Source: Pelagicoccus sp. SDUM812003
GTDB taxonomy: Bacteria; Verrucomicrobiota; Verrucomicrobiia; Opitutales; Opitutaceae
Assembly: GCF_031127815.1 (NCBI RefSeq)
Contig: NZ_JARXHY010000005.1
Location: 124,001 to 188,000 of the forward strand
Length of the DNA: 64,000 bases
Direction: 5' to 3'
Part shown: one piece after another, positions 37,178 through 42,510 of the stretch
Position numbering within the stretch: position 1 is the stretch's first letter
How the letters are laid out: each line of letters opens with the position of its first letter
Notes under the pieces: generated by a model
Databases searched by the model: none
What the model saw: only the letters and a program-made list of their open reading frames with translations
Told to the model about the DNA's origin: nothing
Translations under genes and position numbers: made by a program

Positions 37178-37591
37178 CTAGTCGAGATAGAGCTCCATCA
37201 AGCCATTGGGCTGATAGCCGGGGATGAGCCATTTCAAGGCCGCTTCCTGCGAGCTAAACTGCCGCATCAGCGACTTTTCGGTGTCGAAAAACTCGGAGAA
37301 GTAGTCGATGTACGCGGCTGGAACTGGCTTGATGCTATAGAACGCCGTAGTCAGCGAGTCGTAGTCGGTCAGCGCCTCTTCGCGCCACCGCCGAAACGTT
37401 TCCATCTTTTCATGCGTCAGGGGAAATGCCAGCTCTTCAACCTCCGCTGAGGTGATGATCTTCAGGTCGCGTGCGTAGTTCTTGTTGGCAATCAGCAGGT
37501 CGAAGTGGCGTCTGATCGAATCGGTATCGATCACAGGTCCCCAAGAGACTCTTAGCAGGCCTAGATTGGAAAAGTATGTGTGTAGCTCCAT
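37178..37591 (-). CDS. Small hypothetical protein, possibly STAS-like
   Basis: 137 residues, not recognised with certainty. It opens MELHTYFSNLGLLRVSWGPVIDTDSIRRHFDLL and ends with FSSQEAALKWLIPGYQPNG. This echoes SpoIIAA/STAS-like small proteins where a beta strand is followed by an AALKWL helix. No catalytic residues, signal or membrane segment are visible. The start ATG at 37591 is followed by an ordinary codon pattern, so it is probably a real gene. It lies convergent to the beta-CASP gene and 188 bases downstream of the OleB-type gene on the same strand; no operon link is evident. Confidence 0.6.
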   Translation of the reverse strand: MELHTYFSNLGLLRVSWGPVIDTDSIRRHFDLLIANKNYARDLKIITSAEVEELAFPLTHEKMETFRRWREEALTDYDSLTTAFYSIKPVPAAYIDYFSEFFDTEKSLMRQFSSQEAALKWLIPGYQPNGLMELYLD

Positions 37592-37779: not shown

Positions 37780-38676
37780 TCAATCCTCGTCGTAATCAGC
37801 CATCTGATAGATCGCCTCGCAGCAGGATTCCCGCTCGTCTTCCAGTATGTAGTGTCCAGCTTCCGGGTAGTGAAACGCGGTGGCGTCCGGGAGAAATCGC
37901 TTCCAGCGTTCCATGAAATGATCGCTGAAGCAAAAGTCCTTTCCGCCCCACAAGATCGTCACGTCCCGCTTGCGCAGCTTCAATAGCTGGTTCTCCACTT
38001 CGATCAGCGTATTGAAGCTCGGATGGGAAACGTGCATAGGAATGTCCTTCACGAATTCGTAAACCGCCCGACGATTCGACCAACTGCCGTAAGGATAGAG
38101 GAAGCCCCGCTTCACCTCGTCGCTCAAACGACGCTTGCTCACCGCCATCTTCACCGCCGGACCAGCGAATCCATTGAGCCCCTGCACGATCAGCTTGCCG
38201 AAGACGGGGGCGCGGCACAGGGCGATGCGAGCGGGTATGCGGGAATCGACGAACGCCGCTGTATTCAAAATTGTGACACGACGCAACTTTTCGAATCGCT
38301 GCAGGGCAGCGCCAAGACCGATCACTCCGCCCCAGTCATGCACCACTAGGTCGAAGCGCTCCAGATCCAGAGCATCGATAAGCTCGCCCAGATCCTCTAT
38401 GCGCTGATCCAGACGATAGCTGTAGGCATCGCCTGGCTTATCGCTAAGTCCGCAGCCGATATGATCCGGCACGATGCAGCGAAAAACCCCGGAAAGCTTT
38501 TTCACCACGTTGCGATAGAAATACGACCAAGTCGGGTTCCCATGAACCATCACCACCGGAAAGCCGCTGCCTTCGTCGAGATAGCTCAACTCGTGGCCGC
38601 ACGAGAGCTTGAGTCGCTTGGGCGAAAATGGGTATTCAGTTTTCAACCACTCCGGGATCTGAGACGTCGTCACCAC
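37780..38676 (-). CDS. oleB: OleB-type alpha/beta hydrolase
   Basis: 298 residues of the haloalkane-dehalogenase-like alpha/beta hydrolases. In head-to-head hydrocarbon synthesis OleB decarboxylates a beta-lactone to a cis-olefin. Seen: DEGSGFPVVMVHGNPTWSYFYRN (oxyanion region), IVPDHIGCGLSDKP, the nucleophile Asp 114 in VVHDWGGVIG, and His 275 in EAGHYILEDE. Asp 114 is also the nucleophile position I recall for characterised OleB. Its start overlaps the end of the OleA gene by seven bases, so the two are translationally linked. In known systems OleB works with OleC and OleD, which are not in this window, so it may act with distant partners or on another substrate. Haloalkane dehalogenase is an alternative but less fitting reading. 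Confidence 0.78.
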   Translation of the reverse strand: MVTTSQIPEWLKTEYPFSPKRLKLSCGHELSYLDEGSGFPVVMVHGNPTWSYFYRNVVKKLSGVFRCIVPDHIGCGLSDKPGDAYSYRLDQRIEDLGELIDALDLERFDLVVHDWGGVIGLGAALQRFEKLRRVTILNTAAFVDSRIPARIALCRAPVFGKLIVQGLNGFAGPAVKMAVSKRRLSDEVKRGFLYPYGSWSNRRAVYEFVKDIPMHVSHPSFNTLIEVENQLLKLRKRDVTILWGGKDFCFSDHFMERWKRFLPDATAFHYPEAGHYILEDERESCCEAIYQMADYDED

Positions 38677-39704
38677 TCCACCCCCATCATGAGACAGTTC
38701 AAACCGCTTCCGATTCCGAGCAGAGCAAGCTTGTCGCCCGCTTTCACCGCTCCATCTTCAGCAGCTTTAGCCAAAGTGATCGGCAACGCGGCGGAGCCCG
38801 TGTTTCCAAATGTCTGATACGAAGAATAGTCCTTTTCCATCTGCAGTCCCAAACTCTCGAAAAGAAGGCGTTGATGGGCCGCGCCGACTTGATGCGTGAT
38901 CACTCTGTCCGGAGTCGCTTCGCTCCAGTCGAGTTCCTTCTTGAACGCTGCCCAAGTTCGTTTCGCGAGGGATACTCCGGCATGCAGCATTTCCTCGGAG
39001 TCGGTCTGCATCTCCAATCCATCTCCGCCCAAGCTCGCGTCGCCTTTGCAAAGGTCGTTGCTAGATGTATCCGCCAGCACACTACCTCCTAGAACCCGAT
39101 GACCGCCGGGAGAGAGGGATTCGTGGCAGACGATCGCAGCCACCGCTCCAGCCCCAATGGTAAGGTTGGCGAAAAACGGTTTGATCGACTTGCGAGTGTG
39201 TTCGCCGCCGAGCAACTGCTGTATAGTGCGTTCCAGCAAGGGCTTTCCGTTTTCGCCTGACACCACGATGCCAGCCTTGATCTGTCCGGCGTCGATCATG
39301 GCGGAAAGCAGGCTGATGGAGTTTAGGAAGCCCAAGCACGCGTTAGAGACATCGAAGACCTGCACTCCCTCTGGCAAGCCCATCAGACGGTGGGCGAACG
39401 ATGCGGTAGCCGGTTCGAGCATGTCCCGACATACCGAAGAGTGGATACAGACTTCGATTTGCTCAGCGGAGATTGTCGATTGGGCGAGGGCCTTGCGTCC
39501 CGCTTGGGCGGCGATTTCCGAGGGACGCACCGGATTATCCCAGAAGCGACGTTCCTTGATGCCCGTCATCAGCTCTAGGCGGCCCTCCGGCAGGCGAAGA
39601 CGCTGATACAGTGGAGCTAGCTTCGATTCGATATCGGCGCTGCTCCATGCAGTGGGCGGCGAAACGTAAGCGAGAGAATCGATGACGGACGACCGAATCT
39701 TCAC
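38670..39704 (-). CDS. oleA: OleA-type thiolase (head-to-head acyl condensation)
   Basis: 344 residues of the ketoacyl-synthase III/thiolase fold. OleA condenses two long acyl-CoAs into a 2-alkyl-3-keto acid. Seen in OleA order: [19 protein letters not shown] at the start, [13 protein letters not shown] with Glu 97 (equivalent to the OleA gate Glu), catalytic Cys 123 in [10 protein letters not shown], His 271 in [10 protein letters not shown], Asn 301 in [10 protein letters not shown], and the OleA-like end [17 protein letters not shown]. The R-D-x-L-E-P and terminal GIGSGLNC separate it from FabH. It overlaps fabI upstream by four bases (ATGA) and oleB downstream by seven. Donors could be acyl-CoA or, given the neighbouring FabZ/FabI, acyl-ACP. 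Confidence 0.85.
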
Positions 39705-40522
39705 GCGTCTTTGTTCCCCTCTTCCGGGCGCATGGCCAGGCGCACGACTTCCTCGTCGAAATAGTTCAGTCCCATGCCCGCGTCCAAGACCATGCTGGCG
39801 CCGTTCATGCCGCTGGAGCGATCGCTGATGAGAAACGCCACCGCGTTGGCAACTTCCTGCGTATTCAAAGCGCGCTTACGATAGGTCAGTTTTTCGCTGT
39901 AGAGATAGCTCTCCAAATACCCCGGAATGCCTGCCGAGGCGCTCGTCTTCAGCGTTCCGGGATTGACGGTGTTGAACCTGACCTCGGTGTCCTTGCTGAA
40001 GGACTTTGCCAAGTAGCGGATCGAAGAATCGAGAGCGGCTTTGACCGGCGACATGTATCCATAATTCGCTGCCGTTATGGTCAGAGACGATATGCTGATA
40101 GCCACCACCGATGCCTTGTTGTCGAGGATAGGCTTGAAGGCGTTGGCGACTTCCACGATCGAGAAGGAGGAGATCGCGGTGGCCTGCAAGTAGTCCTCCC
40201 GCTTGGTTTCGTGGAAGGGCTTGAAGCCTTCGCTGTAGTTGGCGAAGGCGATGGAGTGCACGATGCCGTGAACTGCGCCGAAATCTCGACCGATCTCCGT
40301 CGCCAGACGCTTCACTTGGTCGGGATTCTCCACATCGCAAACGTAGACCGGACGATCCTTGAGCAGTTTGGCGGCGCTTTCCTTGCGAGCTTCCGAGCGC
40401 ACGCTGTAGATGACCTTCGCCCCTTCCTCCTCAAGGGTTTTCGCCACGAACCAGGCCACGCTCTTGCGATTGGCCACGCCCATTACGAGCACGTTTTTTC
40501 CTTCTAGATTCAGAAAGCCCAT
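39701..40522 (-). CDS. fabI: Enoyl-ACP reductase-like SDR (divergent FabI)
   Basis: 273 residues. FabI reduces enoyl-ACP with NAD(P)H at the end of each elongation cycle. Seen: [24 protein letters not shown], the FabI-type cofactor loop, [17 protein letters not shown]154-x6-K161 in [12 protein letters not shown], and [17 protein letters not shown]. The second active-site Tyr of FabI (E. coli Tyr 146, ten residues before the catalytic Tyr) is Ile 144 here, so the protein may prefer unusual substrates or differ mechanistically. It starts five bases after the fabZ-like gene and overlaps oleA. As a pathway-specific paralogue rather than the housekeeping FabI it fits the operon. Confidence 0.85.
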
Positions 40523-40527
40523 TTCGA

Positions 40528-40983
40528 CTACGCTTCGTCCTTGGGAGCCTTTGCCAAAGCCACGCTGAAGGAAACCGTCATCACTCTGCGGCCATCCTCC
40601 GTCTTCACCGAACCATCCATGAAGATGAAGCGTCCGAGCTTTTCCTTGTAGCGAGCGGTGATGTACAAGGTCTCGTTGGGCTTCACGATGCTCTTGAAAC
40701 GAGCATCCGATATCTTGGTCAGCACCGGCACCAGTTCGGGATCTTCGAGAATCTCGTCCGCGAGCAGACGAGTCAGGTAGATCGCTCCCGTCTGAAACAC
40801 CGCTTCCGAGATGATCACGCCCGGCATGATGGGATTGCCCGGATAATGGCCTTCGAAAAAGGACTCCGTTTCGGAAACGAAGCGCCGCGTGGTCAGGTAG
40901 TCGTCCGTCTGCTCGACGATTTCGTCTACAAACAGAAACGGAGGTCGGTGAGGAATCGCTTGGAGGATTTCTTCGCTAGCCAT
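40528..40983 (-). CDS. fabZ: FabZ-type 3-hydroxyacyl-ACP dehydratase
   Basis: 151 residues with a hot-dog fold. It removes water from 3-hydroxyacyl-ACP. Seen: [15 protein letters not shown] at 10-24, the catalytic His 46 in [12 protein letters not shown] and the catalytic Glu 60 in [11 protein letters not shown]. The His-to-Glu spacing of 14 matches P. aeruginosa FabZ. Length is normal. It lies 42 bases after the FAD oxidoreductase gene and five before the reductase, in a five-gene operon with OleA and OleB homologues. This suggests a dedicated copy acting on pathway intermediates rather than in bulk lipid synthesis; a housekeeping FabZ would be expected elsewhere. Confidence 0.88.
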
Positions 40984-41025
40984 AAATCGTTCGATAGGTA
41001 GGGGTTCGGAAAATCGTATTCAAAC

Positions 41026-42510
41026 TTAGGCGACGCTCTCTTTGGAGGCTCCAGCGCGATCCGCGGCAAGTTGCTTGTCTACCTTGTTAGCGGTGATCAC
41101 GCCGTAGTTCATGGTGCCGAGCCAGCCGGACATGATGATGCCGACCGATCCAGCGTGGTACAGTCCGCGAATCTGCTGGGGCAGTTCCATGGAACATTTC
41201 AGACCTTCGAATTTCGTACCGAACGATGTGCCATTCGGATGGCGGGTGTAGTGGCTTATGGTACGTGGCGTAGCCGCTTCCAGGTGGTCGATCTTGTCGC
41301 GCACGCCCGGAATGTATTTTTCCAGGGATACAAGCGACTCTTCGATGAGGCGCTGCTTGTGAGTCTCGTACTCCTCGTCACTGAGGTTCCGCCAGTCTAC
41401 GTATTGAGCGTTCAACGACGCCACCACCGTGTAGCGGTCCGAGCCAGGACGCGTTTCCGGATAGTACACCGAGAAGGTCCGGCTGGTGGTGTGCAGATCG
41501 GTCAACTCCTCGCTGCTGAAAGTCGGAGCCTCGGAGGTGAATACCAGATCCCCGATGTTCGGAATGCTTTCCCCTTCCTTGATCCCCATGTAGACCTGGC
41601 AGGAGCTGCTGTTGATGCGCACCGCGTCGAGCTCCTTGAGGTACTGATCGGAAAACTGCTCCGAGCCCACCAGGTTCTTCACCGTGCTGACCACGTTGGC
41701 GTTGGACACCACCGCGTTGCACCTCACCGTCTTGATATTGTCCGCTTCGCTGTCTCGAGTGCGCCCTTCGATGACCACGCCGGAGATCTTCTTCTGCCCA
41801 TCGACCTCGTCGACAAGGACCTGCTTGACCAGCACGTTCTTGCAAAGCTTGGCCCCGTTGCGCTCCAGCTCCTCCACCATCTTGCCCACCAGCGCATCGG
41901 TGCCGCCTTGGAAGGTGAAGACGCCTTTGCTCATGAAGTTCGAAAAGACGATGCCATAGGTGATCGCCGGATCGCTCATGGTGGAGCCGTTGGCGTACGC
42001 GATCGGTTCCATCAGCAGACGGTGCACATCGTGGCGGCCCGGGAAAAACTCCTCGAACAGCTCGCCGGTAGTGCGCTGGTCGTCGTCGTAGAAATTCATC
42101 TGGCGCAGATGGGTGTAGAAGCCTTCCACCTTCTCGCGCTCCAGCTTGAAATCCTCTACCAGGATACGGGTGAAGTCCTGCCGATCGAAGGTCGTCCAAA
42201 CGTCAAACTCCGGATTGATGAAGCGCACGTCCTTGAGCTGCACGATGGAGTCGGCGATCTCCTTGGTCCAATACTTGCGACAGGATTTGACCATGCCGTA
42301 GGGAAATCCGTGCAGGGAGATGTCGAAAATGTGCTTTCCCGGGCGCTTGAACCAAGTGGCCAAGCCTCCGAACTGGTAGTGGTGCTCCAGCAGCAAAACT
42401 CGATGGCCGCACTTGGCGAGCACGTTGGCGCTAGTCAATCCGCCCAAACCGCTACCGATCACGACAACGTCGTATTCGTCCTCTACGCCTTCTAGCCAGT
42501 TTTTGCCCAT
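41026..42510 (-). CDS. FAD-dependent oxidoreductase, CrtI/CrtISO/retinol saturase-like
   Basis: 494 residues. The N-terminal dinucleotide motif [31 protein letters not shown] (GSGLGG at 19-24) and the C-terminal FAD segment [27 protein letters not shown] are typical of phytoene desaturase/carotenoid isomerase relatives. These enzymes desaturate, isomerise or saturate polyenes. [24 protein letters not shown] is another family block. There are no phytoene synthase or other carotenoid genes nearby. It is first in the operon with FabZ, FabI, OleA and OleB, so a role in installing or adjusting double bonds in a long acyl chain is a reasonable inference. The upstream 270 bases are shared with a divergent unknown gene. 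Confidence 0.82.

Follow-up and report, generated by a model that had tools for sequence, protein, structure and literature searches.

A Pelagicoccus operon joining OleA and OleB with FabZ, FabI-like and CrtI-like genes, probably one part of a split pathway to polyunsaturated hydrocarbons

In Pelagicoccus sp. SDUM812003 (Verrucomicrobiota, Opitutaceae), a tight operon of five minus-strand genes encodes a CrtI-like oxidoreductase (CrtI2), a FabZ-type dehydratase, a FabI-like reductase, OleA and OleB. It is located in a stretch of 64,000 nucleotides, which is called the window throughout (assembly GCF_031127815.1, contig NZ_JARXHY010000005.1, positions 124,001 to 188,000). The operon is probably one third of a pathway to polyunsaturated hydrocarbons that is split over three loci, in which a dissociated type II polyene synthase would feed the OleABCD enzymes. 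The other two thirds would be contig C7, with the ketosynthase (KS) KAS II, an acyl carrier protein (ACP) and a second CrtI-like protein, CrtI1, and contig C3, with OleC and OleD. The window itself is on contig C5 of this 5.75 Mb genome, which consists of 88 contigs and is 97.5% complete. The five genes of the operon are:

41026..42510, minus strand: CrtI2, CrtI-like FAD oxidoreductase, operon gene 1; open reading frame (ORF) of 494 amino acids (aa)
40528..40983, minus strand: FabZ-type 3-hydroxyacyl-ACP dehydratase; ORF of 151 aa
39701..40522, minus strand: FabI-like enoyl reductase of a divergent subfamily; ORF of 273 aa
38670..39704, minus strand: OleA, head-to-head acyl condensing enzyme of the thiolase fold; ORF of 344 aa, GTG start
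37780..38676, minus strand: OleB, alpha/beta hydrolase of the haloalkane-dehalogenase fold; ORF of 298 aa, GTG start

Transcription runs from the CrtI-like gene via FabZ, the FabI-like gene and OleA to OleB. The ORF list gives gaps of 42 and 5 bases followed by overlaps of 4 and 7 bases, exactly as had been described when the operon was first proposed. A promoter scan yielded 0 sigma-70-like sites versus 2.1 in shuffled sequences, which carries little weight for this phylum. The CrtI-like protein was scanned against a collection that covers 84,980 species with a single genome each, and 158 relatives of CrtI2 were confirmed. All counts that are expressed as a fraction of 80 refer to the best 80 of these 158, and the conservation of OleA and OleB residues was counted in the homologues found among these 80 relative loci.

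The assignment of OleA rests on several lines of evidence. The protein reaches 440 bits with the NCBIfam model PRK09258 (cut-off 285), which we take to be the OleA model, and misses two general FabH models (110 and 99 bits, cut-offs 249 and 292). Its top matches in the PDB are the 3row group (E 1.3e-66), presumably the OleA of Xanthomonas. The original prediction hinged on OleA falling outside the FabH and other KAS III clades, and the phylogeny places it with Xanthomonas OleA. In the tree of 50 rows, 37 OleA rows, the window and Xanthomonas among them, are split from 13 KAS III rows with a support of 100/100. The OleA sample comprised 35 of 51 sequences of at least 300 aa plus the window and Xanthomonas, the latter on a long branch; the KAS III rows stem from 14 loci, of which 13 gave a match (L004 none), and 6 of these rows cover less than half of the alignment columns. 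Locus L004, on contig C11 of the same genome, contains at 706-1758 a KAS III-like protein of 350 aa that by eye resembles a type III polyketide synthase.

The catalytic residues that had been named for OleA (Glu97, Cys123, His271, Asn301) and OleB (Asp114, His275) are indeed found at these positions, and each of them is invariant, in 31/31 homologues of OleA and in 28/28 homologues of OleB; for both enzymes we assume the usual roles of these residues. Asn47 and Trp115 of OleB are likewise each kept in 28/28 homologues. OleB is an alpha/beta hydrolase with haloalkane dehalogenases as its nearest matches, below the curated cut-offs of those models, and it follows OleA in 27/80 relatives. By analogy with other OleB proteins, it would act as a beta-lactone decarboxylase.

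The two fatty acid synthesis-type proteins have intact active sites, with one characteristic substitution. The FabZ-type protein matches PF07977 and misses the FabZ equivalog cut-offs, and its catalytic His46 and Glu60 are each invariant in 49/49 homologues. The FabI-like protein is a short-chain dehydrogenase/reductase (SDR) that misses the cut-offs of all FabI models shown in NCBIfam. It contains the Tyr-x6-Lys motif, with Tyr154 and Lys161 each conserved in 45/45 homologues of the relative loci. The first active-site tyrosine, the second one expected of a FabI besides Tyr154, is replaced by Ile144; this residue aligns with the Tyr of the motif TLTYLGG of Bacillus subtilis FabI and is an Ile in 45/45 homologues, which suggests an altered substrate pocket in this subfamily. 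Elsewhere in the same genome, the FabI-like protein has six matches, with 23-30% identity. The residue of the window protein directly ahead of the active-site Asn-Tyr is Ala152, at a place where 43/45 relatives have a Glu.

CrtI2 forms a clade of its own (24 rows, support 100/97), which is separate from CrtI1 and from the CrtI-like proteins of anammox bacteria. The underlying alignment A2 took in 41 of the 80 CrtI2 sequences, and the second row of the own genome in the tree, L105, is the same gene as L119. Because its closest NCBIfam models are CrtD and carotene isomerase, and a profile comparison gave carotene and phytoene desaturases as the closest solved structures, CrtI2 might be regarded as a carotenoid desaturase and the operon as a source of a carotenoid- or aryl-polyene-type pigment. 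We consider this very improbable, as the best score of 112.4 bits is far under the curated cut-off of 549.7, and the recurrent partners of CrtI2 are KS, ACP, FabG, FabZ, FabI, a phosphopantetheinyl transferase (PPTase) and Ole proteins.

The remaining pathway genes were found elsewhere in the same genome. Contig C3 encodes OleC (542 aa, 629.5 bits versus NF006754, cut-off 478) and, at a distance of 21 kb, an OleD-type reductase (343 aa), for which the best model is 2-alkyl-3-oxoalkanoate reductase (378.7 bits, below the cut-off of 580). NCBIfam was used for both proteins because phmmer searches of the PDB gave matches that were too general, to ligases and SDR-type proteins only. The original prediction had stated that OleC and OleD are missing and that FabZ, FabI and CrtI have taken their place. 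The absence is true of the window and not of the genome, and since OleC and OleD sit on contig C3, the three proteins are no substitutes for them; the alternative that had also been mentioned, namely that C and D are elsewhere, is the actual state. Therefore, as in the OleABCD systems of Xanthomonas, Shewanella, and Micrococcus, the genome encodes OleA, OleB, OleC, and an OleD-type protein, and the catalytic residues of OleA and OleB are kept. However, the ole genes do not form one oleABCD cluster but are on two contigs, and OleA-OleB are in an operon with FabZ, FabI, and CrtI-like genes.

On contig C7, three consecutive genes on one strand encode KAS II (411 aa), ACP (84 aa) and CrtI1 (468 aa). 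Cys162, His300 and His336 of the KS and Ser40 of the ACP are invariant in 17/17 relatives, and in the KS tree the C7 protein is within a clade of cluster KS from other phyla (18 rows, 100/100). No PfaA-type multidomain synthase, i.e., a KS with tandem ACPs, was found among the KS-domain matches of the genome, because there are only three PF00109 ketoacyl-synthase matches, all in frames of 421-444 aa (444, 421, and 432 aa). Another KS is encoded on contig C23, next to a protein that has a FabA-type domain (L120, 8542-10839); this KS is outside the cluster KS clade, and by eye the FabA-domain protein was judged to have an ACP-like front half and a glycosyltransferase as its neighbor.

The arrangement in the window is not due to chance, because all five genes are present in identical order and on one strand in 27/80 relative loci; the persistence of the order in other genomes, on which the original prediction also depended, is thus established. 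FabZ and FabI are both present at 45/80 loci and at least one ole gene at 40/80 (OleA at 31, OleB at 28, OleC at 9, and OleD at 9), while CrtI1 is beside CrtI2 at 22/80, at some of them as a mere fragment cut off by the end of the contig, and KS with ACP is found at 16/80. These counts are lower bounds because many contigs end close to CrtI2. CrtI1 precedes CrtI2 in Phycisphaerae, Dehalococcoidia/Chloroflexota, Nitrospinota, Desulfocapsaceae, one member of the Opitutae (L073), and also in single metagenome-assembled genomes labelled Muiribacteriota, Planctomycetota, Deltaproteobacteria, and Proteobacteria/Pseudomonadota. Together with this pair, the usual order is KS-ACP-CrtI1-CrtI2-(FabG)-FabZ-(FabI)-(PPTase). 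Ole genes are located ahead of the cluster in several loci, OleA in L076, L081, and L086, and OleC-OleD in L080 and L101, and L082 has the row OleB-OleC-OleD-KS-ACP-CrtI1-CrtI2-FabZ-FabI-PPTase. In L073 a single row, KS-ACP-CrtI1-CrtI2-FabZ-FabI-OleA-OleB, unites the genes, and therefore shows what the window genome has on two contigs. The Desulfocapsaceae loci L088, L091, and L094 have the order KS-ACP-CrtI1-CrtI2-FabG-FabZ, and OleA is elsewhere in the genome.

Co-occurrence links CrtI2 and OleA also where they are not adjacent. In a sample of 103 genomes of the window's order, in which CrtI2 was counted at an E-value of at most 1e-100 and OleA when over its cut-off, 75 genomes have both genes, 7 CrtI2 alone, 6 OleA alone, and 15 neither (Fisher p 1.4e-8, not corrected for descent); G101, which is absent from the CrtI2 matches listed, was counted as a genome without CrtI2. 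Both genes are on one contig in 39 of the 75 genomes and at most 5 kb apart in 33 of them. The 15 genomes with neither gene belong to f7 (3), f16 (6), f28 (2), g15 of f8 (both), f5 (one), and f18 (one, 61% complete), and all sampled members of f7, f16, f28, and g15 are without both genes. Among distant CrtI2 carriers, i.e., the genomes behind L073 and behind every one of the 21 records in the set of 80 that are not from Verrucomicrobia, OleA is over the cut-off in 21 of 22, a count that covers CrtI2 carriers only, versus 0 of 14 named controls. In four of those 21 (L073, L076, L081, and L086) it is on the fetched CrtI2 locus itself.

These distributions bear on the view that two unrelated functions share one operon by history, with OleABCD acting on housekeeping fatty acids and CrtI2-FabZ-FabI serving another lipid, e.g., a phospholipid polyunsaturated fatty acid (PUFA) or a pigment. 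Such a separation would agree with the 22/80 relatives that hold CrtI2 without ole genes at the locus, with L058, where OleC-OleD are 3.5 kb off behind unrelated genes, and with the genomes that have CrtI2 or OleA alone. We nevertheless regard it as quite unlikely: OleA accompanies CrtI2 in nearly all of the distant genomes, several different layouts in Verrucomicrobia, Planctomycetota, and Chloroflexota place ole genes directly next to the cluster, and both genes are jointly absent from f7, f16, f28, g15 (all sampled members), and one f5 genome.

A dedicated chain source for OleA has a precedent. The papers cited here were used in extracts, and statements about them hold for those extracts. 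In Shewanella, the C31:9 polyene needs the Pfa synthase, and OleA is thought to draw 16:4 from its carrier domains; pfaA-E together with oleA led to a 31:8 ketone in Escherichia coli (PMC6463001). Genes of the pfa type and ole genes were found together in 44 of the 80 genomes examined in a separate study (PMC3098273), and C31:9 is also made by Geobacter bemidjiensis, in which the pfa and ole genes form a tandem (PMC4882568). Both in that route to 31:9 hentriacontanonaene (Shewanella; proposed for G. bemidjiensis) and in the set described here, a dedicated second acyl synthase would feed OleA via a carrier. In contrast, KS, ACP, FabZ, FabI, CrtI1, and CrtI2 are separate proteins here, and no PfaA-type multidomain KS was found in the genome. 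By analogy, we propose that these six proteins form a dissociated polyene synthase, the ACP-bound product of which would be taken by OleA.

Beyond the observed gene content and order, their conservation, the intact catalytic residues, and the co-occurrence of the pathway genes, we infer the substrates, the division of labor between CrtI1 and CrtI2, the independence of oxygen, and the product as follows. KAS II and ACP, with a borrowed FabG, would build a medium-long acyl chain. FabZ would generate the 2-enoyl-ACP, and the FabI-like enzyme would saturate it in some rounds. CrtI1 and CrtI2 would act on the ACP-bound chains and isomerize or introduce double bonds, so that these are kept, without oxygen; the two clades may carry out the two isomerizations needed for methylene-interrupted double bonds, or may desaturate. 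OleA would then draw two polyunsaturated chains from ACP and condense them, OleD would reduce the product, OleC would close the beta-lactone, and OleB would release CO2, resulting in a polyene similar to C31:8/C31:9. The earlier proposal that the operon serves a polyunsaturated chain and a subsequent head-to-head condensation is strengthened by the gene order across phyla and the co-occurrence; the ketone or beta-lactone end product it had also considered is less probable, given that the genome encodes the full set from OleA to OleD. A wider reading is more tentative, although it might well apply: this could be a third oxygen-independent route to polyunsaturation, in which a CrtI pair within a type II synthase replaces the FabA-like isomerizing domains of Pfa in at least five phyla and is wired to OleABCD for membrane polyenes. 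In that case, one CrtI would place the double bonds and the other would set their geometry, both on ACP-bound chains.

Another close known case is Desulfotalea psychrophila, which contains C31:8 and C31:9 hydrocarbons and is reported to lack polyketide PUFA genes (PMC2649909). It has three phytoene-desaturase-like genes in clusters for type II fatty acid synthesis (FASII), two of them with the consecutive tags DP2405 and DP2406, and on the basis of the FASII/phytoene-desaturase cluster an anaerobic pathway to PUFA was put forward by Rattray et al. (2009) (PMC2649909). D. psychrophila belongs to the Desulfocapsaceae, the family of L088, L091, and L094, and these other members have KS, FabZ, FabG, and two adjacent CrtI-like genes. 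In the window genome, by comparison, CrtI1 is together with KS and ACP on a different contig from CrtI2. In its extracts, the 2009 paper makes no tie of the cluster to ole genes or to Verrucomicrobia, Chloroflexota, and Nitrospinota, and the radical SAM genes that it stresses are outside the recurrent set found here (PMC2649909).

The lipids of D. psychrophila also help to assess whether a modified, non-polyunsaturated chain, e.g., a conjugated, trans, or isomerized monoene, is joined by OleABCD, with the CrtI-like proteins acting as isomerases or saturases. CrtI-like enzymes include carotene isomerases, the respective model gives 93 bits with CrtI2, and the FabI-like partner suggests the removal of some double bonds. 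However, two CrtI clades that are kept side by side, together with a KS, an ACP, a dehydratase, and a reductase of their own, would be a large outlay for one double bond, and the D. psychrophila lipid is C31:8/C31:9 (PMC2649909). Therefore, a modified monoene seems unlikely, albeit worth considering.

Several points weigh against the proposed polyene synthase that feeds OleABCD. In the order of the window, 7/82 CrtI2-bearing genomes are without OleA over the cut-off, among them G044 with OleA split over two contigs and G015, which is 64% complete, and 6/21 genomes without CrtI2 have OleA. Among the distant carriers, G107 (locus L079) encodes CrtI2 without an OleA that passes the cut-off, and the base rate of OleA in CrtI2-less genomes of those phyla is outside the count of carriers. 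At 22/80 loci, all of them from Verrucomicrobia, CrtI2 has no other cluster gene beside it, and neither FabG nor PPTase of the cluster was found at the three loci of the own genome. The equation of CrtI1 and CrtI2 with DP2405 and DP2406 is deduced from the family and the consecutive tags. To our knowledge, no enzyme of the wider CrtI-like kind has a proven reaction on acyl-ACP, since the anammox CrtI-like enzymes did not yield lycopene and the attempt at ladderane formation failed. These two outcomes, the latter for production in E. coli, have been described in one study (PMC4790861).

The anammox genes were also compared directly. PF18582 was rejected as a marker of hydrazine synthase, as it is unspecific and occurs in 76/392 Planctomycetota genomes. 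A putative anammox set of 22 of these 76 was chosen by a frame length of 809-831 aa, of which only G212 (Planctomycetota) is confirmed by a hydrazine synthase with a full-length match to PDB 5c2v. Of the 22 genomes, 15 have a CrtI-like match at 1e-30, and a FabZ-KS-KS-CrtI row was found in 5/5 neighborhoods, i.e., in G212 and four genomes chosen by frame length. Like the anammox candidate cluster for ladderanes (kuste3604-3607 region), the set described here has FabZ, KS, and CrtI-like genes, side by side in the former. In contrast, the anammox clusters contain two KS each, have no adjacent CrtI1-CrtI2 pair in any of the five neighborhoods, and encode CrtI and KS proteins of other clades. Anammox CrtI, CrtI1, and CrtI2 each form a deep clade apart from the other two, with the anammox rows nearer to CrtI2 in the unrooted tree, and the anammox KS is outside the cluster KS clade (18 rows, 100/100). 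Membership in the ladderane cluster was rejected, as neither CrtI nor KS is in one clade with the anammox proteins; because of these separations the window gene set is no more than distantly akin to the ladderane genes.

That the set is a relative of the anammox genes that makes ladderane-like or otherwise cyclized lipids has, in our opinion, a very small probability. The conserved FabZ-KS-KS-CrtI row and the relative proximity of anammox CrtI to CrtI2 argue for it, as does the synteny between the FASII clusters of Kuenenia and Desulfotalea described by Rattray et al. in 2009 (PMC2649909). It is opposed by the clade structure, with anammox CrtI on long branches in a clade of its own beside CrtI2 and the anammox KS apart, by the lack of a radical SAM enzyme among the recurrent cluster genes annotated, and by the D. 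psychrophila extracts, according to which no ladderanes were found in this species (PMC2649909).

Part of this picture is known already, namely OleABCD, also in Verrucomicrobia, the link between Pfa and Ole, and the FASII/CrtI cluster noticed in 2009. Ole genes have been reported from Verrucomicrobia and OleA homologs from Opitutae (PMC7158056, PMC7064751), and according to a metagenome study of 2023, olefin genes occur in Nitrospina, Deltaproteobacteria, Planctomycetes, and Verrucomicrobia (PMC10176705); these groups also carry the CrtI cluster. A paper that joins OleABCD, the Pfa-Ole link, and the FASII/CrtI cluster was not found in the open-licence literature, a scope that leaves out most subscription papers. 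Added here are the coupling to ole genes, the FabI subfamily with the exchange of Tyr to Ile, and the phylogenetic spread of the cluster. How a strict anaerobe without a Pfa synthase makes C31:8/C31:9 polyenes has been a question since 2009, and tests of anammox genes failed. The clusters are present in named isolates, Pelagicoccus mobilis (L025) and strain DG1235 (L022), each of which has the operon of five genes, and are compact in Phycisphaerae and Dehalococcoidia, with a defined set of about 8 to 12 genes. If the proposed pathway is true, Ole hydrocarbons would have a second dedicated source of acyl chains, and the synthase would represent a new chemistry of polyunsaturation that needs no oxygen, with a bearing on marine biogenic alkenes.

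A few neighboring genes deserve mention. A protein of 137 aa is encoded 188 bases past OleB (37178-37591, minus strand); it has no match in Pfam or NCBIfam and is matched in 4/80 relative loci (L022-L025, Pelagicoccus and DG1235). In L058 (6495-15548), the gene ahead of CrtI2 encodes a chorismate-binding enzyme, and OleC-OleD come 3.5 kb further on, after a MarR regulator and unrelated genes; the gene families of this locus recur in part or as a whole in L059, L060, and L062-L064. In L091 (10915-15411), the synthase cluster is followed by genes for MotA/TolQ/ExbB, ExbD/TolR, TonB, TolB-like, and TPR proteins (Pfam), and the same families are present in L088, L094, and L095, so that a link of the synthase cluster to the cell envelope is possible in loci of this type.

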